Below are positions 18,108-60,449 of a stretch of 64,000 nt of DNA, piece by piece. How positions within the stretch are numbered: the stretch's first letter is position 1; each line of letters starts with the position of its first letter. The position numbers and the translations under genes were made by a program. The stretch is from Bacteroidales bacterium. GTDB lineage: Bacteria > Bacteroidota > Bacteroidia > Bacteroidales > UBA932. The notes below the pieces were generated by a model. That model worked only from the letters and a program-made list of their open reading frames with translations. It ran no database searches and was not told where the DNA came from. The stretch spans positions 25,457 to 89,456 of the forward strand of contig JAGBAO010000014.1 in the NCBI GenBank assembly GCA_017938925.1. Direction: 5' to 3'.

Positions 18108-18220
18108 ACCGTCAGGCACTAAATCAGCTAAAACTCTGCCTGTCGGTATAAAAAACAAGGCAATTTGCCCGTTTTCGGGGATCGTCAGGCAGAGTTTCGG
18201 GCAAAAAACTGCCTGTCGGT
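18108..18220. repeat. Family-1 hairpin doublet, 40-33-40 (113 bp), rdgB/protease gap
   Basis: Unit one (18108-18147) runs ACCGTCAGGC to GCCTGTCGGT, the spacer (18148-18180) ends TTTGCCCGTTTTCGGGG, and unit two (18181-18220) runs ATCGTCAGGC to GCCTGTCGGT. The reverse complement of unit one closely matches the units at 60337-60449, so units can sit in either orientation. It lies 36 bp before the protease start. Confidence 0.88.
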
Positions 18221-18256
18221 GCCATATGATTAACTTATAAGATCATTAAAAGGAAT

Positions 18257-19879
18257 ATGAAGAGGAAAATATATATGCTCATGGCTGCGGCCATGTTTTT
18301 TATGGCGGGAGTGACCGCCGAGGGACAGTCAAAGGGGTTCAGATTAGGACAATGGTCCGAGATTCATAATGCCATCGTGATGGAGCTGAACCGCTCGTAT
18401 GTGGATTCGCTGCCGGTGGACAGGATCATGAGGGCCGGGGTGGATGCCATGCTGGAGGAACTGGACCCATATACCGTCTATATTCCTGAGGAGGAGAACG
18501 AGGACCTGCAGATGATGCTTTCCAAGACGTATGGAGGCATCGGCGCGATCATCCACAAGAAGAAGGATGAGAATGTGATCATAAACGAGCCTTATGCCGG
18601 CTCCCCTGCCCAGAAGTACGGACTCCAGTGCGGAGACGAGATCCTTCAGATCGACGGTCTGCCGACCAAGGGGCTGGAGACAAAGGAGAGCAGCGACCGC
18701 ATGAAGGGCAAGCCCGGCACCACCGTGGTGTTCAAGGTGAAGAAGGTGCGCACGGGTGACACTCTCGATATCCCCGTCGTGCGCGAAAGAATCCATTTCC
18801 CGGACATAGAATATGCAGGGATGCTGGACGACACCACCGGATATATCCTCCAGAGCGGATTCACCGAGAATGTTTCAAACGATCTGCGTGCCAAGTTCCT
18901 TGACCTCAAGAAGCAGGGTATGAGGCGTTTCGTCCTTGACCTCAGGGGCAACGGAGGCGGACTTATGAGCGAAGCCATAGGCATCGTGTCGCTGTTCGTT
19001 CCGAAGGGCTCTCTTGTGGTGACCGCCAAGGGAAACACCAAGGACTCGATCAAGGAATATCATACAACCGCTGAGCCTGTGGACACGGAGATTCCGATGA
19101 TCGTCCTCATAGATTCAGGATCGGCATCGTCGTCTGAAATCGTGTCCGGAGCCCTCCAGGACATGGACAGGGCGACCATCATGGGCAAGCGCAGTTACGG
19201 AAAGGGACTCGTGCAGTCTATCAGACCTCTGCCATACAACGGACAGATGAAGATCACCACCTCGAAATACTACACTCCAAGCGGACGCTGCGTCCAGGCG
19301 ATAGACTATGCCAACAGGAACGATGACGGAAGCGTGGGACATATCCCTGACTCTCTGACCAGAGAGTTCAAGACAGCTGCCGGAAGGACGGTGCGTGACG
19401 GCGGCGGAATCACCCCGGATGTGGACATAGAGGTGCCGCAGTACAGCCGCCTTGTATATTCACTCGTGCTGGGAGGCGTCATCGACCAGTATGTAATCAA
19501 TTACGCACGAGGTCACGAATCGATTCCCGCAGTTGATGATTTCCATTTCACCGACGAGGATTTCGAAGATTTCATTGCCTTTGCCAGAACTCAGGAGTTC
19601 GACTACCGCAGCAGTGCGAAGACCTATTATGACCAGATGAAGAAGGAACTGGAGAAGGACGGTCTGGCAGATGCCATGTCTGACGAGCTCAAGGCGATGG
19701 AAAAGGCTCTGGAGATGGATAAGGAGAGGTTCATCCGCCTGAAGAAGGAGGAGATCGTTCCGTTCATCGAGGAGGAGATCGCGACACGCTACTGGTTCCA
19801 GGAGGCCGGTGTCAAGGTGCGTCTGAGGTATGACGAGCAGCTGAAGAAGGCTCTTGTCTCTCCTCTGATTGTAAAATGA
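18257..19879 (+). CDS. C-terminal processing peptidase, S41 family with PDZ domain
   Basis: A 540-residue periplasmic Ser/Lys protease. A signal peptide (residues 1-24, ending VTAEGQS) is followed by a helical N-terminal region, a PDZ domain (about 85-175, with YGGIGAIIHKKKDE and GDEILQIDG) and the S41 core. Catalytic Ser293 lies in SGSASSSEI and Lys316 in SYGKGLVQ. The C-terminal 130 residues are helical and charged. Such enzymes trim or degrade periplasmic proteins marked by non-polar C-termini. The stop overlaps the first possible start of the HAD gene by 4 bp (ATGA), suggesting co-translation or simple operon packing. Confidence 0.94.
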   Translation: MKRKIYMLMAAAMFFMAGVTAEGQSKGFRLGQWSEIHNAIVMELNRSYVDSLPVDRIMRAGVDAMLEELDPYTVYIPEEENEDLQMMLSKTYGGIGAIIHKKKDENVIINEPYAGSPAQKYGLQCGDEILQIDGLPTKGLETKESSDRMKGKPGTTVVFKVKKVRTGDTLDIPVVRERIHFPDIEYAGMLDDTTGYILQSGFTENVSNDLRAKFLDLKKQGMRRFVLDLRGNGGGLMSEAIGIVSLFVPKGSLVVTAKGNTKDSIKEYHTTAEPVDTEIPMIVLIDSGSASSSEIVSGALQDMDRATIMGKRSYGKGLVQSIRPLPYNGQMKITTSKYYTPSGRCVQAIDYANRNDDGSVGHIPDSLTREFKTAAGRTVRDGGGITPDVDIEVPQYSRLVYSLVLGGVIDQYVINYARGHESIPAVDDFHFTDEDFEDFIAFARTQEFDYRSSAKTYYDQMKKELEKDGLADAMSDELKAMEKALEMDKERFIRLKKEEIVPFIEEEIATRYWFQEAGVKVRLRYDEQLKKALVSPLIVK

Positions 19880-19926
19880 CCCGGCATGAATTAAACGACA
19901 GGATGGTCATAAAACAAACTGAAGGC

Positions 19927-20574
19927 ATGGAGCTTAAGACAGCATTGTTTGACTTTGACGGTGTGATCATGGACACCGAGCACTTGTACACCGAATTCTG
20001 GAGCATGCTCGGAGAGGAATATCTCGGGCTGGAAGATTTCGGCCACACCATCAAAGGCCAGACACTGATCCAGATATTCGAGAAGTATTTCGAAGGAATG
20101 GATGCCCAGAAAGCGGAGATTGTTCCCAGACTCAACGAATTCGAGCGGACCATGCCGTTCGAATATATCCCGGGTGCACTTGAATTCATGAAGAAGCTCA
20201 AGAAAGCAGGAGTTCCGATTGCCATCGTGACCAGTTCAAACGACGCCAAGATGGAAAAGGTCTATAAGGTGCATCCCGAACTGCTCGAGCTGGCCGACGC
20301 CATACTCACCAGCGAGCATTTCTCAAAGTCCAAGCCTGATCCCGAATGCTTCCTGAACGCCATGGAAAGACTGGGAGGCAGACCGGAGACCACAGTGGTC
20401 TTCGAAGACTCCCTCCACGGTATTGCAGCCGGACGCGCCTCCGGAGCCTATGTCGTGGGACTCGCAACATCCTTCCCGCGCGAGGTGATAGAACCTCTGT
20501 GCGACATGGTGATTGAAGATTTCTGCTACATGGCGACTGAAGACTTCACCTCGTTATCCCAGCGCGACTCATAA
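19927..20574 (+). CDS. HAD-family phosphatase (beta-phosphoglucomutase-like)
   Basis: A 215-residue HAD subfamily IA hydrolase. Motif I is FDFDGVIMDTE with nucleophile Asp and the +2 Asp; motif II is IVTSSN; motif III Lys lies in FSKSKPDPECF; motif IV is VFEDSLHG. A four-helix cap sits between motifs I and II. The family dephosphorylates or isomerises sugar phosphates; the substrate is unknown. ATG 19927 (MELKTALFDFDG) fits the family; an in-frame ATG at 19876 would add 17 residues and overlap the protease stop by 4 bp. Confidence 0.9.
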   Translation: MELKTALFDFDGVIMDTEHLYTEFWSMLGEEYLGLEDFGHTIKGQTLIQIFEKYFEGMDAQKAEIVPRLNEFERTMPFEYIPGALEFMKKLKKAGVPIAIVTSSNDAKMEKVYKVHPELLELADAILTSEHFSKSKPDPECFLNAMERLGGRPETTVVFEDSLHGIAAGRASGAYVVGLATSFPREVIEPLCDMVIEDFCYMATEDFTSLSQRDS

Positions 20575-20651
20575 CTCACTAACCGCCAGCAAGATAAACA
20601 ACGAACTAGCTATCTTTGCCATGCTAGCCATACCATTTTATTTGCTTTGAG

Positions 20652-20825
20652 GCCATCAGGCAGAGAATTGCCCCAAAGTCTGCCTGTCGGTCCTAAAAAC
20701 CCATCTTTCGGCCTAGTTTCGGGCACCGACAGGCGCCTTTCAGCACTTTTCTCTGCCTGTCGGTCCTAAGAAGAGACAAAATGACACCGTCAGGCAGGAA
20801 ATCAGTCATTTTCCCGCCTGACGGT
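20652..20825. repeat. Family-1 hairpin doublet (20652-20764) plus a third unit (20786-20825)
   Basis: The doublet again has 40-bp units and a 33-bp spacer. It differs from the copy at 26934-27046 at only two positions of 113. A third 40-bp unit, ACCGTCAGGC to GCCTGACGGT, follows after 21 bp. The block sits between the convergent HAD and outer-membrane channel genes. The remaining bases of the 304-bp gap (20575-20651 and 20826-20878) show no gene; CTAGCTA / TAGC-type short inverted motifs near 20605-20630 are weak. Confidence 0.9.
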
Positions 20826-20878
20826 GCTGTATGGAGGTTCTGGTGAGGGGAAGCACCTATTTCATTTGCGACACGGTG

Positions 20879-22258
20879 CTATTCCTGGCCGCCGCCGAGG
20901 GCACGGTAGAGGGTGACCACGGCAGAGATCTTCTCGAAGGTGTCCTGGGCCTGTGAGGTCTGGGCCTGCAGGAGAGACTGCTGGGCGGTGAGGACCTCCA
21001 GATAGGTGGTGGAGGTGTACTGCATCAGTTTTTCGGTCTTGGTCAGGGCCGTCTGAAGGGCCTCGACCTGCCTGTTTCTCCACTGCTCCTTGGCAAGAGC
21101 CGTCTGGTACTGGGTCAGGGCGTTGTTCACCTCTGCTCCTGCATCCAGGACAGTCTGCTGGAATGCGAGGACTGCCGCTTCCTGATCGGCACGGGCTATC
21201 TTCACCTTTCCGCGAAGGGCACCGGCATTGAATATCGGCTGGAAGAGGGATCCCGCAGCATTCATCAGAAGACCGGAAGGGTCCATCACCGTGCTGCCGA
21301 GATTATTGGTCCACCCGAGGACTCCGCTCAGGGAGAGCGACGGATAGAGGTCTGCACGGGCCACATTCACTGCGTAGTATGCGGCAGCAAGATTATTCTC
21401 CGCTGCGCGGACATCCGGACGGCGTGAAAGAAGGGCTGCAGGGACCCCTGTCGCCAACTGGTCAGGGAAGACCGCCGACGAGAGTTTTCCGCGATGGATG
21501 GAGCGAGGTGTCTGGCAAAGGGTCACGGACATGGAGTTCTCCAGTTCGTTTATCGCCTTCCTTATGTCCTCGACCGCTGCCTCCACCTGATACCAGGCGC
21601 CTTCCATCTGGGCCACAGCCACTTCGTTGCCCATTCCGGCACCGACCATGGCACGCAGCACACGTACGCTCTCGGAGAACTTCTCGCAAGTCTGCTTCGC
21701 TATCCTCAACTGCTCGTCCAGCATCAGGAGAGTGTAGTACTGGGTCGCTACGCCGGCAATGAGTCCTGTCCTTGCAGCCTGTTCATAATCCTGAGCCATA
21801 GCTGCGGCGGACTGCGCCTGACGCTTTGCATTTGTCTTTCCTCCGAAGATGTCTATTTCCCAGGACGCTGCAACAGGGACTGTATATGTCCAGCCTGCTC
21901 CGGTGGTGACATTCTCGAAGTTATTGAATCCGCTCACGGCACCTTCCGGAGCGAAGTTTATGGACGGGAGATAGTCCAGACGGGCTATCTTCAGTCCGGT
22001 CATCGCCTGCTCCACCCTCAGACGGGCAGTACGCAGGTCAGTGTTTCTGGCCAGAGCGCTGTCGATCAGCACCTGGAGCTGAGGGTCCGTGAAGAGTTCC
22101 CTCCAGCCCAGATCGGCAATCGAAGACGTATCAGCGGTCTGAAACCTCTCCCCGAACAGGGAATCGGTCACGACCTCAGCCGGCCTCTCATATTTCTTAT
22201 ATATTCCGCAGCCAGTGACCATCATCACCGCCACCAACATCATTACTATTCTTTTCAT
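20879..22258 (-). CDS. RND efflux outer-membrane channel lipoprotein (OprM/TolC type)
   Basis: A 459-residue outer-membrane factor of the NodT/OprM family. The start MKRIVMMLVAVMMVTGCG gives a lipoprotein signal with Cys17. Two OEP repeats follow, with characteristic coiled helices (LRTARLRVEQAMTGLKIAR and VRAAENNLAAAYYAVNVARA) and RRPDVRAAE in the second half. It forms the outer duct of a tripartite pump with the adaptor and pump genes upstream on the same strand. The 187-bp gap to the pump gene holds a 100-bp structured element (22340-22439), so this gene may be expressed differently from the first two. Confidence 0.94.
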   Translation of the reverse strand: MKRIVMMLVAVMMVTGCGIYKKYERPAEVVTDSLFGERFQTADTSSIADLGWRELFTDPQLQVLIDSALARNTDLRTARLRVEQAMTGLKIARLDYLPSINFAPEGAVSGFNNFENVTTGAGWTYTVPVAASWEIDIFGGKTNAKRQAQSAAAMAQDYEQAARTGLIAGVATQYYTLLMLDEQLRIAKQTCEKFSESVRVLRAMVGAGMGNEVAVAQMEGAWYQVEAAVEDIRKAINELENSMSVTLCQTPRSIHRGKLSSAVFPDQLATGVPAALLSRRPDVRAAENNLAAAYYAVNVARADLYPSLSLSGVLGWTNNLGSTVMDPSGLLMNAAGSLFQPIFNAGALRGKVKIARADQEAAVLAFQQTVLDAGAEVNNALTQYQTALAKEQWRNRQVEALQTALTKTEKLMQYTSTTYLEVLTAQQSLLQAQTSQAQDTFEKISAVVTLYRALGGGQE

Positions 22259-22339
22259 AAATCTGCTATATATCATTTCTCACCCACGTTTCTCACCTTG
22301 AGATGAAGAGTGACAATCTCTCAAGATGAAGGGGAGCCA

Positions 22340-22439
22340 GACTGATTTAGGGATGGCATGTAAGCGACATGCCACCCCCGGCTAGGGGGTGCCTGCCGTA
22401 GGCAGGCGGGGGTCGCTGTAATGCCACCCGAAATCAGTC
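22340..22439. repeat. 100-bp cloverleaf-like palindromic element inside the efflux operon
   Basis: The ends are inverted repeats: GACTGATTTAGGGATGGCA (22340-22358) against TGCCACCCGAAATCAGTC (22422-22439). Inside, AGCGAC (22363-22368) pairs with GTCGCT (22412-22417). Within that are two hairpins: CACCCCC/GGGGGTG (22373-22391, loop GGCTA) and CCTGCC/GGCAGG (22392-22406, loop GTA). The stems nest into a four-way junction. It starts 6 bp after the pump gene stop in the direction of transcription. It could be a MITE-like insertion, an mRNA-processing site or an attenuator. Confidence 0.75.
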
Positions 22440-22445
22440 GATACG

Positions 22446-25400
22446 TCATAACCTCACAGTATTATCCACTTCACCCTTCCCTCTCTTCATCTCCCTGACC
22501 TCCTCAATCTCCCTCTGAATCTGCCAATCCCCCCTCTCAAACTCTTCCGGCTTGAACCTCTCCTCGATCCACTTGAAGACCACAAAGAGCGACGGCACAA
22601 GAAAGAGCAGCACAAGGGTACCCACAAGCATACCTCCCACTGCACCTGTTCCCAGCGACGAGTTTCCGTTTGCACCCACGCCATTGGAGAACATCAGAGG
22701 AATCATACCGAACACCATCGTCAGGGCAGTCATGAGGATAGGACGAAGACGCACCTTCGCCGCACCCACAGCCGCCTGGGTCAGGCTCATTCCTGCCTTG
22801 CGGCGCTGACCTGCATACTCGGTGATGAGGATGGCTGTCTTGGCAAGGAGTCCGATGAGCATGATGACTCCGGTCTGGAGGTAGATATTATTTTCAAGTC
22901 CGAAGAACTTGGCGAACAGGAAGGATCCCATGATGCCGCAAGGCACGGATATGATCACGGCGAGCGGAATCAGGAAACTCTCATAGAAGGCACAGAGGAT
23001 CAGATATATAAGGACTATACATATTATATATATGATCATCGAGCTGCTAGCCGAACGTGCCTCCTCACGGGTGATACCTCCGAACTCGAAGCCGAAGCCT
23101 CGCGGAAGCACCTGCTCCGCCACCTCGTTGATGGCGCGGATGGCATCTCCGGACGAATATCCCGGAGCCGCAGAGCCGTTGACAGCTATGGAGTTATACA
23201 TATTGAATCTCGCCAGGGACTGCGCTCCATAGACCTTTGTGAGTTCCACGAACTGAGACAGAGGAGCCATCTGGCCGTTGTCCATACGCACATGGATCCT
23301 GTTCAGGGTCTCAGGCGACATCCTGTACTGAGGAGCAGCCTGAATCATCACGCGGTACACGTGGGAGAAGCGGTTGATGTTGGACACATACTGGCCTCCG
23401 TAATAGCCTCCGAGTGTCGCAAGCACGGTTGCCGGAGAGACTCCTGCCCTCTTGCACCTTGCCGCATCCACATCCACGACATACTGCGGGAAGTTAGGGT
23501 TGAAGGACGTATATGCCATGGCAATCTCCGGACGCTGGTTCAGGGCTCCAAGGAACTGCTGCGCAACTGAGTAGAACTCCTGCACATCCCCGCCGAGCTT
23601 GTCCTGAAGGTGCATCTCGAAACCATTGGTGGTACCGTATCCCATGATCACAGGAGGTGCCATAGGGATGATCTGTGCATCCTTGATGTCGGCTGTGCGT
23701 GCCATAATATCCCCAATGATGGCGTCCACCTTGTTTTCGTCTCCAGGCCTTTCGCTCCAGTTCTTAAGACGGAGGATGAGCTGGGCATATGGAGTACCCT
23801 CTCCTGCGATCATTCCATATCCCGAAACCGCCGCACATAGTTCTATATTCTTCATTCCGTCAAGCCTTGCATTCACTTCGCGCAAGGTCCTGTCGGTGTT
23901 CTCGAGCGAGCTTCCCGGAGGCATGGTAACGTCCACCATGATGGTTCCCATATCCTCGTTCGGCACCAGACCGGTTGGGGTTGTGATCATGAGCCACACG
24001 AGAAGTCCTATACATACTGCAACCACAGCCCACATCGTCTTCTTGTGGCGGATGAAATAGATCACTCCGAACTTGTAGTGGTTAACGATGGCGTTGAAAC
24101 CCACCGTGAACCTCTCTCTGAACCTGTTGGAGAAGGTGTCCTTGACCTTTCCGTCCTCACCCACATACGGTTTCATAAGCAAGGCGCAGAGAGCTGGAGA
24201 GAGCGTGAGGGCGGTCACCGCGGATATACCCACAGCTACTGCCATGGTGATACCGAACTGGGTGTAGAAGATTCCCGAAGTACCTCCTGTCATGGAAACC
24301 GGGATGAACACCGCCATGAAGACCAGAGTCGAGGTAATGATGGCGGACATAATGCCGTTCATCGCGTCGTTGGTCGCATGGTATGAAGACCTGTATCCCA
24401 CCTCGAAACGGGCCTGGACAGCCTCCACGACCACTATGGCGTTGTCGCACACCGTTCCGATGGCGAGCACAAGGGCGAAGAGGGTCAGCAGGTTGATGGT
24501 GAATCCCGCAACCGCCATGAATGCGAAGGTTCCCACGAGGGACACCACGATCGCAATGGTCGGGATCAGGGTGGCACGAAGGTCCTGAAGGAAGAAATAC
24601 ACCACCAGCACCACAAGGATGAAGGCTATGATGAGTGACTTGAAGACCTCTTCCATAGAGGCATAGAGGAAGTCGTTCACTGACATAAGGGTGTCGATTT
24701 CAACATCTTCCGGCAGGTCCTTGCTCGCATTTTCGATGAGTTCGTCGATGCTGTTGACCACCTCTGTGGCATTGGATCCTGCGATCTGGAAGACCATGAG
24801 CTGGATGCCCGGATGGCCATTCAGACGGGAGTTATATCCATACGACTCGATGCCGAGTTCGGTCTTGGCAACATCCTTCAGACGAAGCACCTCACCGTCT
24901 GGCAGGGCCGCGATGACGATCTCGTCAAATTCCTCCGGAGTCATCTTGCGTCCGCGGTACTTCATCGTATATTCATATGTCGAGCCTGAACTTTCTCCGA
25001 AGGAGCCGGTCGCCGCCTCGATGTTCTGCTCCGCAAGCACTCCGGCTATATCGGACGGAATGAGATGGTGACGGGCCATTGCTGTCGGGTCGAACCATAT
25101 TCTCATCGAATACTGGGCACCGAGCAGGACGACGTCTCCCACACCCTTGATTCGCTTGAGTTCGGGCTCGATGTTCAGTTTCATGTAGTTGGCGAGGAAA
25201 CGCTCGTCGTATGTTCCGTTCGGACTGTGGATATCCACGATCTTAAGCATGGATGTCTGCCTCTTGATGACGGTCACACCGATTCGTGTAACCTCCTGAG
25301 GGAGAGAGCCTAAGGCCATGGACACACGGTTCTGGACATTGACGGTGGCCATGTCCGGGTCGGTTCCCTGACGGAAATATATGTTGATCGACACCGAGCC

Positions 25401-25658
25401 GTTGTTGTTGGAGGTGGACTTCATGTAGTCCATGTTCTCCACTCCGTTGATGGACTCCTCGAGAGGGGCGATCACTGATTTCTGGATGGTCTCGGCACTG
25501 GCTCCCGGATACTGGGTCATCACCATTACTGTTGGAGGAGCGATGTCAGGATACTGCTCGATAGGCAGGGTCGCCAGACCGATGCAGCCCGCCAGGACTA
25601 TGACTATCGAGATCACGCTCGACAGCACGGGGCGGTCTATGAATACCTTTAACTTCAT
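22446..25658 (-). CDS. RND multidrug efflux pump, HAE1/AcrB family
   Basis: A 1070-residue inner-membrane trimeric pump. The N-terminus MKLKVFIDRPVLSSVISIV and the repeated two-half layout, each with a large periplasmic porter domain (about 35-335 and 560-870), are typical of HAE1. In helix 4 the proton-relay pair of AcrB (Asp407-Asp408) appears as Asp-Asn in CDNAIVVVEAVQ; the second Asp is replaced, as I recall for related Bacteroidota pumps. It starts 11 bp after the adaptor gene stop and so is in one operon with it. Substrates are likely hydrophobic drugs or bile compounds, which is inference. Confidence 0.96.
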   Translation of the reverse strand: MKLKVFIDRPVLSSVISIVIVLAGCIGLATLPIEQYPDIAPPTVMVMTQYPGASAETIQKSVIAPLEESINGVENMDYMKSTSNNNGSVSINIYFRQGTDPDMATVNVQNRVSMALGSLPQEVTRIGVTVIKRQTSMLKIVDIHSPNGTYDERFLANYMKLNIEPELKRIKGVGDVVLLGAQYSMRIWFDPTAMARHHLIPSDIAGVLAEQNIEAATGSFGESSGSTYEYTMKYRGRKMTPEEFDEIVIAALPDGEVLRLKDVAKTELGIESYGYNSRLNGHPGIQLMVFQIAGSNATEVVNSIDELIENASKDLPEDVEIDTLMSVNDFLYASMEEVFKSLIIAFILVVLVVYFFLQDLRATLIPTIAIVVSLVGTFAFMAVAGFTINLLTLFALVLAIGTVCDNAIVVVEAVQARFEVGYRSSYHATNDAMNGIMSAIITSTLVFMAVFIPVSMTGGTSGIFYTQFGITMAVAVGISAVTALTLSPALCALLMKPYVGEDGKVKDTFSNRFRERFTVGFNAIVNHYKFGVIYFIRHKKTMWAVVAVCIGLLVWLMITTPTGLVPNEDMGTIMVDVTMPPGSSLENTDRTLREVNARLDGMKNIELCAAVSGYGMIAGEGTPYAQLILRLKNWSERPGDENKVDAIIGDIMARTADIKDAQIIPMAPPVIMGYGTTNGFEMHLQDKLGGDVQEFYSVAQQFLGALNQRPEIAMAYTSFNPNFPQYVVDVDAARCKRAGVSPATVLATLGGYYGGQYVSNINRFSHVYRVMIQAAPQYRMSPETLNRIHVRMDNGQMAPLSQFVELTKVYGAQSLARFNMYNSIAVNGSAAPGYSSGDAIRAINEVAEQVLPRGFGFEFGGITREEARSASSSMIIYIICIVLIYLILCAFYESFLIPLAVIISVPCGIMGSFLFAKFFGLENNIYLQTGVIMLIGLLAKTAILITEYAGQRRKAGMSLTQAAVGAAKVRLRPILMTALTMVFGMIPLMFSNGVGANGNSSLGTGAVGGMLVGTLVLLFLVPSLFVVFKWIEERFKPEEFERGDWQIQREIEEVREMKRGKGEVDNTVRL

Positions 25659-25669
25659 GGGGACCTCCT

Positions 25670-26806
25670 TTATTTAGATTCGCTCAACTCGCTGCGCTCG
25701 CTCGGAATGACAGTCTGGCCTTCACGGACCATGCCGACGCCCTCGGCGACAATGACATCTCCTGCCGAGAGACCGGCCTTCACTACATATCCCTTGCCGT
25801 CATCGGTGAGTTTCACACCCTGGAGGTGGGTCAGGACGGCTTTGCCGTCAACGACCTTATATACACAGACAATGTCCTGCATCTCGAAAGTAGCCCTGCA
25901 CGGAACCACGATACTGCTGTCCAGCGTCCTTGCCAGGATGATGTTTCCCGACGCGCCGCTGTGCAGGATGCCGCCCTCGTTAGGGAAGACTGCACGCACC
26001 GACACGCTTCCGGTGCGAGGGTCAATCACTCCGCTGATGGTCTCGATATATCCTTCCTCACCGTAGAATGAGCCGTCTGCAAGCTGAAGTTTCACTGGCG
26101 GAAGGCTTGCAAGCACCTCCTGCATCGACCCGTGCTCGGCGGTCAGACCGAGAAGCTGGATCTCTGAAATCGAATAATAGACATACATCTGGGAGTTGTC
26201 GGACACTGTGGTCAGAGGCTGCGGGATTGCCGGCGAGACGAGGGCACCAGCACGGAACGGAATGGTACCCACGACTCCATCCACAGGGCTGAGGACCTGG
26301 GTGTAGGTCATGTTGTTCTCTGCTGTGACAAGCTGAGCCTCAGCCTGGGCGAGTCCTGCCTTCGCTGTAAGGAGCTGATTCTTGCTTGTGAGCAGATCGA
26401 ACTCCGAGATCACCTTCTCCTCGAAGAGCTTCACACGGCTGTCATACACCAGCTGAGCCGTAGCCACACCGGCATTCGCAGCCTCCACATTGGCCTGAGC
26501 CATCTGAAGGGCGGCCTTGAACGGCACCTGGTCGATGATGAAGAGTGACTGTCCTTTCTTCACGCGCTGTCCCTCCTTCACACACACCTTTGAGATTGTG
26601 CCCGAAACCTGCGGGAATATCGCAATATCCTGACGTCCTTCGATGGATGCCGGATAGGTCTCGGACAGAATTGTCTGAGTCGCTTCGACCGTCATCATCT
26701 TGTGAGCCGAAGCCTGATTCTGGTGGCCCTGCTGCTGATTCCGGCCACAACTGACACTAAAAAAGGCAGCAATCAAAGTTGCTGCAATCACTGATAATTT
26801 TTTCAT
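25670..26806 (-). CDS. RND efflux periplasmic adaptor lipoprotein (AcrA type)
   Basis: A 378-residue membrane-fusion protein. The start MKKLSVIAATLIAAFFSVSCG gives a lipoprotein signal with Cys20. A lipoyl/barrel-sandwich half-motif (VCVKEGQRVKKGQSLFIID), an alpha hairpin (about 95-160), the second lipoyl half (VLSPVDGVVGTI) and beta-barrel domains follow. It joins the pump to the outer-membrane channel. The last residues, IPSERSELSESK, are encoded by a dispersed repeat (25676-25711) rather than by normal family sequence. ATG 26806 is chosen because the longer frame reaches past the promoter-like TACTTTTG at 26827-26834. Confidence 0.94.
   Translation of the reverse strand: MKKLSVIAATLIAAFFSVSCGRNQQQGHQNQASAHKMMTVEATQTILSETYPASIEGRQDIAIFPQVSGTISKVCVKEGQRVKKGQSLFIIDQVPFKAALQMAQANVEAANAGVATAQLVYDSRVKLFEEKVISEFDLLTSKNQLLTAKAGLAQAEAQLVTAENNMTYTQVLSPVDGVVGTIPFRAGALVSPAIPQPLTTVSDNSQMYVYYSISEIQLLGLTAEHGSMQEVLASLPPVKLQLADGSFYGEEGYIETISGVIDPRTGSVSVRAVFPNEGGILHSGASGNIILARTLDSSIVVPCRATFEMQDIVCVYKVVDGKAVLTHLQGVKLTDDGKGYVVKAGLSAGDVIVAEGVGMVREGQTVIPSERSELSESK
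25676..25711. repeat. GTCATTCCGAGCG-type repeat forming the adaptor C-terminus (family 5)
   Basis: On the minus strand the element reads GTCATTCCGAGCGAGCGC then AGCGAGTTGAGCGAATCT, with GAGCG/CGCTC self-complementarity. It is translated as the tail of the adaptor just before the stop codon. Related elements lie at 47204-47230 and inside an aminotransferase gene at 59155-59205. Confidence 0.7.
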
Positions 26807-26826
26807 CCGTTTTAATTTTTGCGCGG

Positions 26827-26834
26827 CAAAAGTA
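26827..26834 (-). promoter_or_regulatory. -7 element of the efflux operon
   Basis: The minus strand reads TACTTTTG 21 bp before the adaptor ATG, in an A/T-rich stretch. A TTG-like box lies only 13 bp further upstream, shorter than usual. The spacing to the ATG gives a very short leader. Confidence 0.5.
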
Positions 26835-26933
26835 TACAAAAAAACGACAAGTTGTGACCTCTGAAAATTCAAAAAAAATGCATTTTTTGCTCAGAAATTT
26901 CTGAGTATCCCGGAAAAGCACCGGCCATTTCTG

Positions 26934-27046
26934 ACCATCAGGCAGAGAATTGCCCCAAAGTCTGCCTGTCGGTCCTAAAAACCCATCTTTCGGCCTAGTT
27001 TCGGGCACCGACAGGCGCCTTTTAGCTCTTTTCTCTGCCTGTCGGT
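26934..27046. repeat. Family-1 hairpin doublet, 40-33-40, near-identical to the copy at 20652
   Basis: Units 26934-26973 and 27007-27046 flank the 33-bp spacer CCTAAAAACCCATC ... TTTCGGGC. Compared with 20652-20764 there are two substitutions, both in the loop of the second unit. The block sits in the 400-bp divergent gap between the efflux operon and the galactanase gene. The rest of the gap (26835-26933, 27047-27172) is A/T-rich with no gene seen. Confidence 0.9.
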
Positions 27047-27172
27047 CCCGCAGGGCTACAGATTGTGAGTTCTGCTTCCTTTCCGCCTATATTCTTGCAT
27101 TTCTGCACCAGACATTTTAGCGCCGAGACCAAAAATATGACGAAAAAAATCGGCGTATCCGAGGAATATTTT

Positions 27173-27180
27173 TAAATTTG
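27173..27180 (+). promoter_or_regulatory. -7 element of the galactanase operon
   Basis: TAAATTTG matches TAnnTTTG and ends 27 bp before ATG 27207. This decides against the longer in-frame start at 27180, which would begin at the end of the promoter element. No convincing TTG was found at -33. Confidence 0.5.
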
Positions 27181-27206
27181 TGGGATTTGGAATTTATTTG
27201 AATACC

Positions 27207-28325
27207 ATGAAATACAGAAGACTTATATTGGTGGCAGCAATGATCATATCAGGGTTTGCCGCCTGCGAAAAGACACCGGACAACGACGATCAGGGACAGA
27301 CTCCGGGCAATGGGGATGACAATCAGGAAGTGAGCGTTCCTGCGACATTCGCCAAGGGAGCGGACATCAGCTGGGTCACACAGATGGAAGAAGACGGGGT
27401 GGAGTTCTATAATGCGACCGGCAAGGAGACAGAGTGCACCGAACTGATGAAGGAGCTGGGATTCAACTCGATACGCCTGCGCGTGTGGGTGGATCCGGAA
27501 GACGGATGGTGCAACAGCGAGGATGTGCTCGAGAAGGCATTCAGGGCATATAATCTCGGAATGAGACTGATGATCGACTTCCATTACAGCGACACATGGG
27601 CAGATCCTTCAAACCAGACACCGCCTGCAGCGTGGAAGTCATACAAGGCCGATGAAATGACCCAGGCCGTAGCCAGACATACGACAGACGTTCTCCAAGC
27701 CATGAAGGAAGTCGGCATAGAGGTGGGATGGGTGCAGGTGGGCAACGAGATAAACAGCGGCATGCTGCATCCGCTCGGAGACATAACCCAGCCTGCCAAT
27801 ATCCCGAACTTTGTCAAGTTCGTCAATGCCGGATATGACGCAGTCAAGGCAGTCTATCCGGAAGCCAAGGTCATCCTGCACAGGAGCAACGGACAAGACA
27901 CCGACAAGTTCGCCTGGTTCCTGAATGTGCTCAAGGTCCAGAAAGTCAAGTATGACATCATCGGAATGTCACTCTACCCTATCTGGTGGGAAAACGGCTC
28001 GAACGGATGGAATGCGGGATGGAAGAGCGTCATCTCGAACTGTCTGGACAACGTCCGCAATTTCAGCAGCACATACGGCAAGCCGGTGATGATCTGCGAG
28101 ATAGGAGTGCCGGTGAGCGAGCCGCAGATGTCCAAGGAGGCCGTGAAGATGATTCTGGACGGCACCCGCGAGATCGAAAGCTGCCACGGAGTGTTCTACT
28201 GGGAGCCTCAGACAGACGGAGTGTGGAAACCGTCAAGCTATGCTGCTCTTGGCTGGAACGCATATGACAAGGGCGCTTTCAAGGACGGAAAGGCGACAGC
28301 TGTTCTCGACGCGTTTAAAGAATAA
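27207..28325 (+). CDS. Arabinogalactan endo-beta-1,4-galactanase, GH53 lipoprotein
   Basis: A 372-residue endo-galactanase that cuts beta-1,4-galactan side chains of pectin. MKYRRLILVAAMIISGFAAC is a lipoprotein signal (Cys20), followed by an acidic linker and the GH53 barrel beginning FAKGADISWVTQME. The acid/base Glu181 lies in VQVGNEINSG and the nucleophile Glu298 in MICEIGVPVSE. Lipidation suggests attachment to the outer membrane, perhaps at the surface. It heads a run of three genes (subtilase 14 bp downstream, then a small lipoprotein), none of which is a SusCD pair, so this is not a typical polysaccharide-use locus. Confidence 0.94.
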   Translation: MKYRRLILVAAMIISGFAACEKTPDNDDQGQTPGNGDDNQEVSVPATFAKGADISWVTQMEEDGVEFYNATGKETECTELMKELGFNSIRLRVWVDPEDGWCNSEDVLEKAFRAYNLGMRLMIDFHYSDTWADPSNQTPPAAWKSYKADEMTQAVARHTTDVLQAMKEVGIEVGWVQVGNEINSGMLHPLGDITQPANIPNFVKFVNAGYDAVKAVYPEAKVILHRSNGQDTDKFAWFLNVLKVQKVKYDIIGMSLYPIWWENGSNGWNAGWKSVISNCLDNVRNFSSTYGKPVMICEIGVPVSEPQMSKEAVKMILDGTREIESCHGVFYWEPQTDGVWKPSSYAALGWNAYDKGAFKDGKATAVLDAFKE

Positions 28326-28339
28326 ACAAAAAGACATAT

Positions 28340-33550: not shown

Positions 33551-33663
33551 AGCGACAGGCAGAGTTTGAGGCAAAAAGTTGCCTGTCGGTGCTCAAAACG
33601 AGGGTTCTAGGCGCGAAAGCGGAACCGACAGGCGGAATTTCGGGCGAAAGTCTGCCTGTCGGT
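33551..33663. repeat. Family-1 hairpin doublet, 40-33-40, between nifX-like and luxR genes
   Basis: Units 33551-33590 (AGCGACAGGC to GCCTGTCGGT) and 33624-33663 (ACCGACAGGC to GCCTGTCGGT) are separated by 33 bp (GCTCAAAACGAGG ... GCGGA). The surrounding 309-bp gap has no gene; the stretch 33664-33720 is purine-rich (GGAGGAAGG runs) with nothing recognisable. Confidence 0.88.
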
Positions 33664-41309: not shown

Positions 41310-41346
41310 GCATACACAGGAGAGCAGCCCGTTTCTCCTCTATAAG

Positions 41347-41459
41347 CAGGTGCTACACGATTTTGCTTTTCTCGTGTAGCACCTGTTTCATTTTTCGTCG
41401 TTTTGCGGGGGTTTTACATACGGGTTGTACACGAGACACCCGCTTTTGTGTAGCACCCG
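41347..41459. repeat. Family-3 hairpin doublet, 39-35-39, left flank of the RAYT cassette
   Basis: Hairpin one (41347-41385) is perfect over 14 bp: CAGGTGCTACACGA and TCGTGTAGCACCTG around TTTTGCTTTTC. The 35-bp spacer includes TTTTTCGTCGTTTTGCGGGG, and hairpin two (41421-41459) is imperfect (CGGGTTGTACAC ... GTGTAGCACCCG). It is a direct repeat of 43864-43976. The second stem base pair is A-T here and G-C there, a compensatory change. The rest of the gap after gpmI (41460-41586) has no gene. Confidence 0.92.
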
Positions 41460-41586
41460 CTGCATCGTCGCTGGAACATACAGCAGATCAAGCGCTGCTG
41501 GTTGCGAGTAACCAAGCCTTCTTCCGGCCTGAATGCATCCATCCTTGCCATCACCCGGACCAGACGAGCAAAAAATCCATTAAAAA

Positions 41587-41618: not shown

Positions 41619-41687
41619 TTCCGTATTGAACTGTTCTGGTTCGCCATCCACGATCAAATGGCACATATGACATAACACCACTTGATC

Positions 41688-41909: not shown

Positions 41910-42003
41910 TCAGTCCACAGACATTCATGTTCACACATTTTCCGACGTCATCATCCAGTTTTGCGTCGGAAGATGTCACCCATAATATTTATACAAATTT
42001 ATC

Positions 42004-42858: not shown

Positions 42859-43776
42859 ATGAAACGGTCGTTCCATATATGTCTGTCTTCAGAGAGTGAA
42901 GTCATGTTCAGGGATGAAGAAGACTATGACAGAGGATTCAACTGCTTTGCCCTTGCGCTCTACAAGACGGATTCTACCGGACTGGTGGAATCCTTCATGT
43001 CAAATCATGCACATCTCCTTGCACAATGCGAATATCCGGAAGGGCTGATCGGAGCATACAGAATGCCTTACGCCAAGTACTTCAACTACAAATATGGAAG
43101 AAGCGGCAAACTGGGAGAGATGAGGTGTTTCGTGCTGGAAGTGAATGGCCTCTATCATCACCTGGCAGCGATGAGTTATATCCTGAGAAATGCTCTGCAC
43201 CATGGTGTGGTATCTATTCCATACGCATACCCGCACTCTTCTGTAAACGTAATCTTTCAGAGGGAAATGGGAAAGCGGCCTGTTGAAGATCTGATTTCTC
43301 CGTCCTCCTACTACAGACATATCGGAAGGCGGGCCGATTTCCCAGACTCCTACAAGATGAGCAGTTCTGGGCTGTTCCTCCGGGAAAGTGTCCTTGACAT
43401 TCCGCAGGTGGAGAATATGTTTGCCTCTCCAAGAGCATTCGACTACTATATGAGCAGAAAGACTTCCGAGGACTGGGTCAAAGAGCAGAGCAAAGACAAC
43501 AACAGCATGCTGCCCATTACTTTGGAAACCATAGAATCCAACGTTTCAATGGATCCAGTAGATCAGATGCTGATCAACGAGAGTGGAAGAGGGAACTACC
43601 GCAGAATCACTGACATTGAGCTGTGCGGAATCATAGACAGGATTGTCCGGGAAGACTTGAAAAAGCACTCGGTGTATTTTCTGTCGCCGGAAGAAAAGAT
43701 GAGTCTGGCAAATCAGCTGCGCAAAACTCACCATCCCACCAATGCACAGCTCCAAAGATGTCTGGTGATGGTGTGA
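42859..43776 (+). CDS. REP-associated tyrosine transposase (RAYT, Y1/IS200-like)
   Basis: A 305-residue Y1 single-strand transposase. FRDEEDYDRGFNCFALAL, the HUH motif in MSNHAHLLAQ (the two His coordinate metal), YAKYFNYKYGRSGKLGEMRC and SYILRNALHHGVVSIPYAYP match, in order, the RAYT consensus (FrDdeDy, MpNHvHLL, Yar-fN-rygr-G, YI-lNPvraG). The Tyr of SYILRN is the likely catalytic residue. About 130 extra C-terminal residues probably bind DNA. It is not flanked by IS200 ends but by the family-3 hairpin doublets, which fits RAYT proteins acting on REP hairpins. It is probably single-copy and domesticated, but that needs the whole genome. Confidence 0.88.
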   Translation: MKRSFHICLSSESEVMFRDEEDYDRGFNCFALALYKTDSTGLVESFMSNHAHLLAQCEYPEGLIGAYRMPYAKYFNYKYGRSGKLGEMRCFVLEVNGLYHHLAAMSYILRNALHHGVVSIPYAYPHSSVNVIFQREMGKRPVEDLISPSSYYRHIGRRADFPDSYKMSSSGLFLRESVLDIPQVENMFASPRAFDYYMSRKTSEDWVKEQSKDNNSMLPITLETIESNVSMDPVDQMLINESGRGNYRRITDIELCGIIDRIVREDLKKHSVYFLSPEEKMSLANQLRKTHHPTNAQLQRCLVMV

Positions 43777-43863
43777 ACTGCTGGGGCAGGATACGGAGGC
43801 AGGATGCGGGTGACAGGATGCGGGAGGAGACGAACGTGATGACTGGATACGGGTGAAATGAAG
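43777..43863. repeat. Short degenerate tandem CAGGATRCGGG repeat after the RAYT gene
   Basis: After the stop codon the motif GCAGGATACGGAG, GCAGGATGCGGGTGA, CAGGATGCGGGAGG, and later CTGGATACGGGTGA recurs at 14-15 bp steps, with a longer interval before the last. It runs up to the right family-3 doublet. I see no coding role. Confidence 0.55.
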
Positions 43864-43976
43864 CGGGTGCTACACGATTTTGCGTTTCTCGTGTAGCACC
43901 CGCCTCATTTTTCGTCGTTTTGCGGGGGTTTTACATGCGGGTTGTACATGAAACTCCCACTTTCGTGTCGCACCCG
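43864..43976. repeat. Family-3 hairpin doublet, 39-35-39, right flank of the RAYT cassette
   Basis: Hairpin one (43864-43902) is CGGGTGCTACACGA and TCGTGTAGCACCCG around TTTTGCGTTTC. The spacer is 35 bp, and hairpin two (43938-43976) is imperfect (CGGGTTGTACATGAAA ... TTTCGTGTCGCACCCG). Orientation and spacing equal the left copy at 41347-41459. The remaining stretch to the M3 peptidase stop (43977-44077) holds no gene. Confidence 0.92.
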
Positions 43977-44077
43977 TTGTATTCCGTTGCTATCAACCCG
44001 CCATCATCCTGGATTTCGCATCGTCATCAGGATAACATTCAGAACGAAACCCAGTCAGGATGTATGGCTCGCCCGGA

Positions 44078-50220: not shown

Positions 50221-50221
50221 A

Positions 50222-54696: not shown

Positions 54697-54704
54697 CGCG
54701 CTGT

Positions 54705-55739: not shown

Positions 55740-55770
55740 CGGATCTCATCTGCATATTTAACATAGAACT

Positions 55771-57982: not shown

Positions 57983-57997
57983 ATATTTATAAACTTG

Positions 57998-58897: not shown

Positions 58898-58983
58898 TAT
58901 TTCACTTAACTATCTACAAACCAATACTTTATGGAATTGTCCTGCCATCCTTTCCATGCAGGACAAACATCTAACTAACTGGC

Positions 58984-60213
58984 TTACAACAACTTCGCCT
59001 GCACGGCAGATATTCTGTCATACGCCTCTTCCAGCACCTGAGGCTTCGCGCAGAGGGATATGCGTATATAATCCTCGCCGTTCTTTCCGAATATGAAGCC
59101 CGGGGTGATGAACACTCCTGCTTTGTGGAGAATCCTGTCGGAGAACTGTTCTCCGGCAGATTTCCCGACTCCCTCCGGTCGCTCGAAATGACATGGGGAC
59201 TCCTGCAGATCTCCTACGCGTCCCCACAGGAACATTCCGGTGGAATTATGGTCATATTCCGCTCCCAGCAGATCGAAGATCCTTCCGGCCAGCACCCTGC
59301 GGCGACGATATTCCTCATTCAGCTGAGAAAACCACTCCGGCCCCTGGGCAAGTGCCTGGACAGCAGCCAGCTGCAACGGCTTGAACATTCCCGAATCCAT
59401 CTGGCTCTTCACTTTCAGAATCTCTGATATGACCTGGGCATCAGCCGCCACCATTCCGATTCGCCAGCCAGCCATATTGTGGGCCTTGCTCAATGAATTA
59501 AGCTCCAGACAGCACTCCTTCGCTCCCGGCTGGGCAAGAATCGACAGAGGCCTGTCGTTCAGGATGAAGCTATATGGATTGTCGTTGCATATGAGGATTC
59601 CGTGTCTGCGGCCGAAGTCCACAAGCCTTGCATACAGCTGCTCTGAGGCGGGCGCACCGGTCGGCATGTTCGGATAGTTGGTCCACATTATCTTCACCCC
59701 GCTAAGGTCCATCCTCTCCAATGCCTCGAAATCGGGCCACCAGCCGTTCTCTGCACGTAGATCATATGTAACTATCTCTGCCTCAACCAGTTTAGAAGCC
59801 GAAGAATATGTCGGATAGCCGGGGTCCGGGACAAGCACCTTGTCACCTTTGTCCAGAAACGCAAGCGATATCAGCAGGATGGCCTCCTTGGATCCGACCA
59901 GGGGCTGGATTTCCTTTGCAGGATCGAGTTCCACACCGTACCAGCGGGAATACCAGTCTGAGAAAGCTTGTCTGAGTTCGGGCAGTCCCACATAGCTCTG
60001 GTATGCGTGGTTGCCCGGCTGAATGGCTGACTCGCACAGGGCTTCGACGGCAGGTACCGGCGGCATCCCGTCCGGAGAACCGATGCCGAGATTGATCACC
60101 GGGGCCTCACCTGCGGCCTTGCGGTCGAGGTTCATCTGCGCAATCTCCTTCAGCTTGCGGGAGAAATAGTATTCCTGGACGGACTCCGTCCTTTTTGCTG
60201 GTCTTATTATCAT
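58984..60213 (-). CDS. PLP-dependent aminotransferase (class I) with in-frame repeat insertion
   Basis: A 409-residue fold-type I aminotransferase, likely acting on aromatic keto acids or aspartate. GIGSPDGMPP at the N-terminus, SKEAILLISLAFLDKGD, TNYPNMPTGAP, CNDNPYSFI, and the PLP Lys in LNSLSKAHNMAGWR are typical. Residues about 338-354 (QESPCHFERPEGVGKSA) are encoded by a dispersed repeat at 59155-59205 and interrupt the otherwise normal FLWGRVGDL...FITPGFIFGKNG region. The gene stands between pheA and tyrA, which supports a role in phenylalanine and tyrosine synthesis. Confidence 0.92.
   Translation of the reverse strand: MIIRPAKRTESVQEYYFSRKLKEIAQMNLDRKAAGEAPVINLGIGSPDGMPPVPAVEALCESAIQPGNHAYQSYVGLPELRQAFSDWYSRWYGVELDPAKEIQPLVGSKEAILLISLAFLDKGDKVLVPDPGYPTYSSASKLVEAEIVTYDLRAENGWWPDFEALERMDLSGVKIMWTNYPNMPTGAPASEQLYARLVDFGRRHGILICNDNPYSFILNDRPLSILAQPGAKECCLELNSLSKAHNMAGWRIGMVAADAQVISEILKVKSQMDSGMFKPLQLAAVQALAQGPEWFSQLNEEYRRRRVLAGRIFDLLGAEYDHNSTGMFLWGRVGDLQESPCHFERPEGVGKSAGEQFSDRILHKAGVFITPGFIFGKNGEDYIRISLCAKPQVLEEAYDRISAVQAKLL
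59155..59205. repeat. GTCATTTCGAGCGACCGG-type repeat inside the aminotransferase gene (family 5)
   Basis: On the minus strand it reads GTCATTTCGAGCGACCGGAG followed by GGAGTCGGGAAATCTGCC. Its ends pair (GATTT/AAATC region with TCGAGCG/CGGTCGC in the centre). It adds about 17 codons without a stop. From memory, this sequence type is widespread between genes in Bacteroidota and other bacteria. Confidence 0.8.
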
Positions 60214-60336
60214 CGTCTTCTTTTTTATATATCAGTTTACGCCTGTCATATCAAGCGTAGTGGAGACATCTTTATATATCGTTCCAATTTTCACAAATAG
60301 TTCAGCAAGACTTTACCTATAAGTTTATTATGCGAC

Positions 60337-60449
60337 ACCGACAGGCAGAGTTTTGACTGATTTAGCGCCTGACGGTGGTCAAAACCTCCTGTTTTGCCCG
60401 TTTTCGGGGACCGACAGGCAGAGTTTCAGCCGATTTAGCGCCTGACGGT
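60337..60449. repeat. Family-1 hairpin doublet, 40-33-40, between pheA and the aminotransferase gene
   Basis: Units 60337-60376 and 60410-60449 both run ACCGACAGGCAGAGTTT to GCCTGACGGT; the spacer (33 bp) ends GTTTTGCCCGTTTTCGGGG. It occupies the 253-bp gap inside the aromatic operon, 18 bp after the pheA stop in the direction of transcription, so it would be part of the mRNA. Confidence 0.9.

Follow-up and report, generated by a model that had tools for sequence, protein, structure and literature searches.

The window (the whole 64,000-nt stretch of Bacteroidales DNA analyzed in this work) contains five dispersed 113-bp elements, each with two 40-bp units separated by exactly 33 bp, and a RAYT-like transposase gene flanked by doublets of a different repeat family (Table 1). 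The 40-33-40 geometry, already described in the earlier note, was confirmed at all five sites, and a sixth site comprises a single unit. These units constitute the ACCG family, with the 10-bp arms ACCGWCAGGC and GCCTGWCGGT. Their description as palindromes holds for the arms, albeit imperfectly because W is A or T independently on each side, and does not extend to the inner 20 bp. Likewise, the supposed relatedness of the spacers is borne out by a TTTCGGG-like end in four of the five, but this end is absent from the spacer of the 33551 site.

Table 1. Repeat elements and the RAYT-like gene located in the window.
Feature	Coordinates	Strand	Context
GTGCTACACGA-arm doublet, 74-bp period	16250..16371		dispersed copy away from the RAYT gene
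ACCG-family doublet	18108..18220		divergent genes on either side; 36 bp 5' of the S41 peptidase gene 18257-19879
ACCG-family doublet	20652..20764		between a convergent gene pair
Single ACCG-family unit (sixth site)	20786..20825		21 bp past the 20652 doublet; 61 bp start to start
ACCG-family doublet	26934..27046		between a divergent gene pair
ACCG-family doublet	33551..33663		the sole ORF overlapped is short (~80 codons)
GTGCTACACGA-arm doublet, 74-bp period	41344..41465		left flank of the RAYT unit
RAYT-like Y1/HUH transposase gene	42859..43776	+	profile E-value 1.2e-50; NHAH and YILRN motifs; flanked by the GTGCTACACGA-arm family, not by ACCG
GTGCTACACGA-arm doublet, 74-bp period	43861..43982		flanks the RAYT gene on the right; 88.5% identical to 41344-41465 in direct orientation
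ACCG-family doublet	60337..60449		aminotransferase/prephenate dehydratase gap; copy in the sister species identical at 113/113 bases

In the source genome, the arm pattern gave 49 forward matches with up to one mismatch, compared to 0 for a reversed-pattern control, and at least 51 units with up to three mismatches, compared to 2 for the control; thus, the units are not due to chance. They form at least 27 arrays in 2.67 Mb, with the window denser than the genome average, so the earlier extrapolation to hundreds of copies per genome is not sustained. The 27 arrays comprise 22 doublets, one triplet and four singles, the latter including one truncated by the end of its contig. In the examined stretches of the sister genome RGIG5433, the 26 arrays are 19 doublets, three singles and four longer arrays, of 3, 4, 5 and 6 units. 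Both counts leave out locus L069, which is a duplicate, and two matches that are probably due to chance (window position 50775 and L077:8003). Altogether, 41 of the 53 arrays consist of two units, and 56 of the 59 start-to-start distances below 400 bp in the two species equal 73 bp (72, 61 and 340 bp occur once each). Hence the fixed spacing, with the doublet as the unit, was upheld, exceptions (singles and one spacing each of 72 and 61 bp) being rare. Among the 400 genomes of the genus searched, the family is present in number only in the source genome and RGIG5433, while six others have one place each, with 2 mismatches. Matches in Neisseria and Planctomycetaceae, which show the inner pattern without full units, were taken as chance, and a viral origin was rejected, with 0 matches in viral contigs; a blastn search of positions 18000-21000 of the window against phages returned three weak partial matches.

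No ORF of at least 80 codons is overlapped by 38 of the 53 arrays. The other 15 do: 11 touch only ORFs of up to about 116 codons, and four touch longer ones (566 codons at L027). The flanking ORFs are in tandem for 22 arrays, convergent for 9 and divergent for 5, the remainder being the 15 ORF-overlapping arrays and two edge cases. The arrays between convergent ORFs speak against a role as promoter operators, which we rejected. Many copies lie near gene ends.

The earlier note regarded the hairpin as a conserved feature of the units, which our pairing counts do not support. In 42 nonredundant units, base pairing within the inner 20 bp is not above the level predicted from composition: in none of the ten inner column pairs is the excess over expectation larger than 0.01, and the column pairs 15/26 and 16/25 are Watson-Crick in only 0.36 and 0.31 of the units, compared to the expected 0.53 and 0.52. 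The column pair 5/36 shows no covariation in the same set. It is very improbable that the elements act as RNA, i.e. as paired hairpins serving as transcription terminators or stabilizers of mRNA: the 10-bp arms could pair and the location of many copies near gene ends would suit such a role, but the inner pairs do not rise appreciably above expectation, and a group II intron is the only Rfam match at the gathering score in the window. On the strength of the pairing counts we rejected the hairpin/RNA interpretation.

What is kept in the interior of the doublet is a pattern of A/T or G/C with a period of 10.4 bp. At this period, each of the 32 nonredundant doublets surpasses 95% of the dinucleotide shuffles of its own sequence, and 27 of them surpass all 200 shuffles; the peak remains at 10.4 bp with the arms masked. 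Some power at 10.4 bp is also present in the 60-bp flanks (0.56); shuffles give 0.25, and the initial 60 bp of the elements give 1.11. Thus, the proposed match of 73 bp to some seven helical turns goes beyond coincidence, and because of it the phased pattern is continuous over both units. In a test of 38 individual arrays (some loci were included twice), 19 were phased with P <0.05, among them one of the ACCG family (L076), while 19 of the 37 non-ACCG arrays were not phased at P 0.05. A scan of 100 kb of E. coli K-12 found one palindrome array, which is not phased.

In 27 of 32 doublets the units form direct rather than inverted repeats; the identity of the inner 20 bp is 0.64 in direct and 0.38 in inverted comparison. 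This, together with the arrays of 3, 4, 5 and 6 units at the 73-bp period, would be expected of a minisatellite or a degenerate CRISPR-like array spread via slippage and recombination. Nonetheless, 41 of the 53 arrays end at two units, the copies are scattered and for the most part differ in their flanks, and the combination of near-identical repeats with unique spacers that characterizes CRISPR is not observed, since the units are variable and the spacers are related and phased. We consider this origin the least probable of all those discussed here.

The copies at 20652 and 26934 are 98% identical across 114 bp, while their flanks are unrelated, which indicates that the doublet moves as a unit. 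Together with the dominance of the 73-bp distance and the differences in presence at orthologous gaps, this bears out the earlier suggestion that the doublet, rather than the single palindrome, is what disperses. The sister genome lacks the 18108 doublet in the orthologous gap, and the source genome lacks the sister doublet L045:7116-7228 at positions 50221-50226 of the window. Among the 27 source arrays, three doublets have a counterpart at the same place in the sister, and at a fourth place one unit in the source corresponds to two in the sister; the remaining arrays have no partner among the sister element loci examined. Inheritance with the flanking genes, named in the earlier note as a refuting observation, is thus seen as well, at these few places. 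The steps between presence and absence are not a clean 113 bp: empty-site comparisons reveal length differences of about 167 bp or more. The elements could be miniature transposable elements (MITEs) of a DDE insertion sequence, in which case the outer arms would be the terminal inverted repeats and the unit would measure 113 bp or about 185 bp. The outer arms are indeed inverted repeats, and a subfamily of seven ACCG-family copies shares common flanks, with a total of about 185 bp. However, in-register arrays of 3-6 units are not MITE-like, similar doublets adjoin Y1 genes instead, and no clear target duplication was visible by eye at the aligned copies (the alignments at L045 overlap by 6 bp, so a short one is possible there). 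We therefore find a MITE origin improbable.

The three fully shared doublets are identical at 113/113, 110/113 and 109/113 positions, compared to 85-92% in the adjacent genes. Good conservation also extends to the short intergenic flanks at two of these places (69/75, 17/17 and 66/71; elsewhere 12/14 and 40/50). The gap at 60213-60467 measures 0-9 bp at 13 of 27 congener loci, but two species have an ACCG doublet in it, another species a CACGACGCA doublet (71 bp) and yet another a CATCCGG doublet (51 bp). The strong constraint on shared copies and the phased A/T tracts would also be expected of an immobile chromosomal array that binds a nucleoid protein, gyrase or a regulator, with copies arising by occasional duplication and kept for the bound protein. 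The published account of E. coli gyrase describes motifs with phased AT/GC and BIME-2 elements with the properties of strong gyrase sites (PMC6379681), in agreement with such a role. Yet the family is numerous in only 2 of the 400 genomes, the sister species differ in its presence, the same gap holds doublets with different arms elsewhere, and 9 of the 53 arrays lie between convergent ORFs, at odds with a promoter operator. An immobile array thus appears unlikely, and a mobile doublet remains our preferred interpretation.

A candidate type of mobilizing enzyme is suggested by the RAYT-like gene of the window (Table 1). Judging from the sequence, its product has the HUH motif and the single predicted catalytic Tyr expected of RAYT/TnpA_REP proteins, and residues H50, H52, Y107 and N111 are invariant in 14 aligned proteins. 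Its match to the NCBIfam REP_Tyr_transpos model (E-value 0.075) is below the cut-off, as is that of the relative L200 (E-value 1.7e-11); a Pfam search with the window gene yielded no Y1_Tnp match, and profile A1 matched solved Y1 transposases weakly (E-values from 0.012 to 0.21). The array-side RAYT profile identified 11 genes in the source and sister genomes, and arrays lie beside 8 of 9 of them (L036 and L156, from the other side of the tree, were left out). Arrays occur on both sides of four of these eight genes, with periods of 74 bp (the window gene), 73 bp (L240) and 82 bp (L241 and L235). The L240 doublets have the 40-33-40 geometry, and their A/T profiles correlate with that of the ACCG family (r 0.54 and 0.51; 0/400 shuffles as high). 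RAYT-like genes flanked by their own repeats were seen for the GTGCTACACGA-, AGTGTCGT- and ATCAAAAAA-arm sister families; none with ACCG-arm flanks was found in the source (91.9% complete) or sister (78%) assemblies.

Across the genus, the first test of Y1 association gave one match in 36 Y1 loci and three in 30 control loci (two of the three being the ACCG site itself), and the first strict test found doublets in 2/81 flanks of Y1 genes, compared to 3/478 control flanks. A wider period scan, with arrays more than 60% covered by an ORF of at least 150 codons excluded (three at Y1 loci, three in controls), revealed 13 intergenic arrays in 164 kb around 49 congener Y1 loci and 7 in 513 kb of controls (Poisson p 7e-7), or, counted by locus, 10/49 Y1 loci and 7/147 control pieces (p 0.002, with 119 of the 147 pieces being a hand estimate); these p-values are optimistic, because the range was widened after a 51-bp example had been seen and the loci (the first 29 plus the next 20 matches) come from the top of the list. 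The controls were 28 AT-PDT loci and 400 kb of genomes G043 and G377, and one of their 7 arrays belongs to the Y1 locus L200; against the AT-PDT loci alone the comparison is 10/49 to 2/28 (Fisher p 0.19). The deepest branch (support 95/92) of a 43-protein Y1 tree (13 of 56 Y1 loci lacked a usable HUH ORF and were left out) separates a side with arrays in 11 of 19 from one with arrays in 2 of 24 (L038 was labelled by eye, not by the scan); clustering of the array label on this tree was not significant in a shuffle test (109/500 as low). A whole-turn test of 27 hand-entered periods, one per family and genome and with ACCG excluded, gave R 0.61 at 10.45 bp (p 4e-5), with p 3e-4 for the 13 Y1-associated periods and 0.04 for the other 14. 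A free scan of the same periods peaks at 10.9, and families of 66, 76, 77 and 87 bp are off phase.

REPs and REPINs are long-known bacterial repeats, of which the reason for fixed-spacing doublets and the benefit to the host are still debated. In our opinion, the 113-bp doublets are probably a dispersed, non-autonomous, helically phased REPIN-like element that spread as a whole, presumably mobilized in trans by a RAYT-type transposase. We infer that a transposase of this type (TnpA_REP, Y1/HUH) would act on the ACCG-family doublets of this Bacteroidales lineage through the family-specific 10-bp arms, which are probably what it recognizes. The A/T-versus-G/C pattern kept in the inner 20 bp and the spacer of 33 bp runs on through both units and probably marks a site at which a host protein bends or wraps double-stranded DNA; DNA gyrase is by analogy the best-precedented candidate for this protein. 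As a more general and quite tentative proposal, which we do not favor at present, a RAYT-like group of Bacteroidales may spread arrays and doublets of palindromes with whole-turn spacing (~42, 51-52, 72-74 and 82 bp), with the interior selected mainly for phased A/T tracts; the payload would be a DNA-shape module (a wrap or bend site, e.g. for gyrase) placed in intergenic gaps, the arms varying by family while the shape stays. In the ACCG family the spacing equals whole helical turns, the interior is kept as phased A/T or G/C and not as base pairs, and shared copies diverge less than neighboring genes; with these three traits, the hitherto vague idea of REPs as binding sites for gyrase or other proteins that wrap DNA can be tested directly.

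According to the published description of REPINs in Pseudomonas fluorescens SBW25, REPs occur mostly as doublets with a preferred spacing (71 bp in the GI group), the doublet being the replicative unit, with some tandem clusters and with RAYT genes near the repeats (PMC3116915). The ACCG family is similar in its short extragenic palindromes, fixed-spacing doublets that predominate in both genomes, the doublet as the unit and some tandem arrays. In contrast, 93% of the doublets described in SBW25 consist of two inverted REPs, with a predicted fold into a single hairpin (PMC3116915), while those of the ACCG family are mostly direct repeats and would not fold in this way, with inner pairing not kept, A/T phased at 10.4 bp and no same-arm RAYT found. 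The Bacteroidetes TnpA_REP subclass 2.6 (RAYT group 5) is described as Y1 genes flanked by "atypical secondary structures" that recur elsewhere in the genome (PMC6006769), and thereby resembles the present families; the available text of that description, unlike our data, gives no spacing, doublet or phasing. CGTC- and GTAG-tagged REPs are reported as extragenic palindromes of 20-40 bp that frequently form dimers, in most cases separated by 20-100 bp, and the CGTC repeats occur in Bacteroidetes among other phyla (PMC3733652). As described there, these REPs have an unpaired tag end, and the CGTC repeats a loop of 4-5 bases, while the flanking columns of ACCG-family units are G/C-rich and have no unpaired GTAG/GGAG or CGTC foot; the CGTC within some ACCG-family arms is CGAC in others. 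A literature search with little coverage of subscription journals found no paper that addresses the helical phasing of REPINs or describes these doublets. Another parallel is BIME-2 of E. coli, reported as REP arrays with the properties of gyrase sites, with a gyrase motif in which AT/GC alternates in helical phase (PMC6379681): the ACCG family shares the unit arrays and the phased AT/GC, but its sequence is unrelated, and gyrase binding is suggested here by analogy. Finally, the BrickBuilt MITE of Porphyromonas gingivalis is likewise described as intergenic with internal repeats, with 19 copies in one strain (PMC4596501); we rejected identity with it, as its 23-nt tandem unit with a leader and a tail differs from the ACCG-family elements in both size and structure.

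All five 113-bp elements that the earlier note described, each made of two 40-bp palindromes (40-33-40), are present with exactly that geometry, and a sixth unit of this ACCG family begins 21 bp beyond the end of the 20652 doublet (see the table). A search of the whole source assembly (2.67 Mb in 34 contigs, 91.9% complete, of which the window makes up 64 kb) with the pattern ACCGWCAGGC-N20-GCCTGWCGGT retrieved 49 matches with at most one mismatch and 51 with at most three, versus 0 and 2 for the reversed pattern used as a control. A scan of genome contigs identified the family in one further species, the sheep-colon Bacteroidales MAG RGIG5433 (59 forward matches; our G294, and also G328 of the same genus, with identical contig coordinates). 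Units with at most one mismatch were absent from the other 100 genomes of the genus sample, and exact units from the other 198 genomes of the family sample. Among 400 genus genomes the doublet core (at most two mismatches) was numerous in two (24 and 34 places) and occurred once, with two mismatches, in each of six more; the control matched in one genome. The 53 arrays lie between tandem (22), convergent (9) or divergent (5) ORFs or at edges (2), while 15 overlap an ORF of at least 80 codons (in 11 of these, only ORFs of up to about 116 codons).

The geometry was analyzed in 20 stretches each from this genome and its sister RGIG5433 (78% complete), together with the loci of the contig scan, leaving out L069, which is a duplicate, and two hits probably due to chance. 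The rigid spacing proposed earlier holds: start-to-start distances below 400 bp equal 73 bp in 56 cases and 72, 61 and 340 bp once each. Doublets account for 22 of 27 arrays in this genome, among the matches listed, and for 19 of 26 in the fetched stretches of the sister, which also possesses in-register arrays of 3, 4, 5 and 6 units. The paired units are direct repeats (identity of the inner 20 bp 0.64 in direct versus 0.38 in inverted alignment), the direct orientation giving the better fit in 27/32 doublets.

In 32 nonredundant doublets (<85% identity) the arm bases CAGGC/GCCTG are almost invariant, and columns 5, 15-16, 25-26, 36, 47-48, 67-68, 78, 88-89, 98-99 and 109 hold A or T in every doublet, either base being tolerated, so that the A/T groups follow each other at steps of ~10.4 bp. 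This 10.4-bp signal exceeds the 95th percentile of the doublet's own dinucleotide shuffles in 32/32 cases and all 200 shuffles in 27/32; the peak stays at 10.4 bp when the arms are masked, and the 60-bp flanks carry a weaker signal (0.56 versus 0.25 in shuffles). AA or TT makes up 87% of the A/T steps inside the tracts versus 58% in the flanks, a likeness to bent A-tracts. The hairpin itself, as a conserved feature, is not borne out: columns 15/26 and 16/25 are paired in only 0.36 and 0.31 of 42 units versus 0.53 and 0.52 expected, and columns 5/36 in 0.52 versus 0.49. Since the phased A/T is kept and the inner pairing is not, the interior looks as if it were selected for the shape of double-stranded DNA rather than as a hairpin stem.

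That the doublet moves as a unit, as had been suggested, is supported by the 20652 and 26934 copies, which are 98% identical across 114 bp in unrelated flanks. Two subfamilies have some 20-50 bp of extra common sequence per side; 69/106 flanks match no other flank. Doublets occupy orthologous places in both species at window 60337 and at loci L025 and L032, with 113/113, 110/113 and 109/113 identical positions versus 85-92% identity in the adjacent genes (short intergenic flanks: 69/75, 17/17, 66/71, 12/14 and 40/50), and a fourth common place holds one unit in this genome and two in the sister. The loci fetched from the sister yielded no orthologous counterpart of the remaining arrays. The proposed comparison of orthologous gaps revealed that the 18108 doublet is missing from the sister's gap and, conversely, that a sister doublet is missing where window genes meet at 50221; such differences do not amount to clean steps of 113 bp. 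The gap occupied by the 60337-60449 doublet measures 0-9 bp in 13/27 congener loci and contains a doublet with other arms (71-bp period) in congener L129 and a CATCCGG-arm doublet (51-bp period) in congener L137; we infer that this aminotransferase-prephenate dehydratase (AT-PDT) gap was entered independently by different repeat families. Two ACCG doublets in direct orientation, with 98% identity, bracket an operon for RND-type efflux (20879-26872). The sister lacks the stretch 20515-28420, operon and a GH53 gene included, and has ~170 bp between the matches on either side; the stretch may have been gained or lost through recombination between the doublets.

Most likely, a RAYT (REP-associated Y1/HUH transposase) of the array-associated group would act at the arms, on DNA in single-stranded form, and copy the whole doublet as a unit, and the phased interior would provide the inserted DNA with a good site for bending or wrapping. 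Action of a RAYT on the doublet as a unit is proposed for REPINs in a passage of PMC3116915, and the ACCG doublets would work in the same manner. However, the inverted hairpin-forming pair and the GTAG-type foot of REPINs were absent from them as tested, and REPINs have a cognate RAYT while the ACCG family has no proven one; for these reasons we call the doublets REPIN-like and do not file them as members. The direct orientation is an added difference, which slightly lowers our confidence in the REPIN-like reading. Our literature search found no report of helical phasing in REPIN-type elements. Passages of PMC6379681 describe E. coli gyrase sites in which, in phase with the helix, AT points to the protein and GC to the solvent, and they ascribe properties of strong gyrase sites to BIME-2 repeats; by this precedent gyrase is a candidate for the wrapping protein.

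Scanning the genus for palindromes repeated at any distance of 34-120 bp, irrespective of arm sequence, revealed further families, mostly at 42, 51-52, 71-74 and 82 bp. Their 27 periods (ACCG left out) fit whole turns with R 0.61 at 10.45 bp (p = 4e-5), in a broad fit with a free maximum at 10.9 and four families off phase, and more weakly among the 14 families not adjoining Y1 genes (p = 0.04). Single arrays are phased at P <0.05 in 18/37 non-ACCG cases (L076 set aside). The ACCG A/T profile is matched by 12/13 doublets of 71-74 bp period (shuffle P <=0.022); the 82-bp family shows no correlation with it, yet is phased by itself. Three CATCCGG-arm arrays overlap ORFs of at least 150 codons, and at L159, on the same contig as the window, about seven such repeats adjoin a RAYT-like gene.

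Features and their positions (window coordinates, or position within a fetched locus, L)
Feature	Position	Remark
ACCG doublets	18108-18220, 20652-20764, 26934-27046, 33551-33663, 60337-60449	73-bp period
Sixth ACCG unit	20786-20825	
CATCCGG-arm arrays	5081-5211, 31064-31141; L018:3219; L159:2300-2680	51-bp period
ATCAAAAAA-arm doublets	L017:3307, L024:2779, L025:4513, L241, L235	82-bp period (about eight turns)
RAYT-like gene	42859-43776	NHAH and YILRN motifs
GTGCTACACGA-arm doublets	41344-41465, 43861-43982	74-bp period; both sides of the RAYT-like gene
GTGCTACACGA-arm doublet, further copies	16250-16371; L030:313	
Tandem repeats of 87 and 76 bp	L046:178, L066:1631-1810	sister; out of helical phase
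Group II intron match	63861-63957	minus strand; Rfam RF00029, 46.7 bits

The arrays of this wider set preferentially adjoin RAYT-type Y1/HUH genes (13 intergenic arrays near 49 congener Y1 hits, in 164 kb, versus 7 in 513 kb of controls), with narrower early tests negative or weak and p = 0.19 against the AT-PDT control alone. The deepest branch of a tree of 43 Y1 proteins parts them into a set of 19, of which 11 have arrays, and a set of 24, of which 2 have arrays; the clustering of arrays on this tree was not significant in a shuffle test. A profile built from 15 proteins of the array-rich side detected 8 RAYT-like genes in this genome and 3 in the sister. The window gene and both GTGCTACACGA doublets around it belong to a stretch (~41323-44081) missing from the sister, which has some 110 bp instead. 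A 284-codon ORF (42004-42858), for which no Pfam match was found, ends one base upstream of the gene's start and is possibly the partner gene of this unit. The L240 protein is 53% identical to the window protein, and 40-33-40 doublets lie on both sides of its gene; their arms are AGTGTCGT, and inside they show the A/T pattern of the ACCG family. The 82-bp doublets flank RAYT-like genes in both species, at L241 and at the sister's gene L235, and dispersed copies of them also occur. None of the RAYT-like genes found in the two assemblies, both incomplete, has ACCG arms; several ACCG copies lie near contig ends, where a multicopy gene could have been lost. Y1 loci of a second kind in the genus (L156, L169, L197 and others) carry HIYQR-type RAYT-like genes flanked by ordinary single palindromes, e.g. 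AAATCGCCTGCG...CGCAGGCGATTT, so that the genus seems to have RAYT-repeat systems of two kinds side by side.
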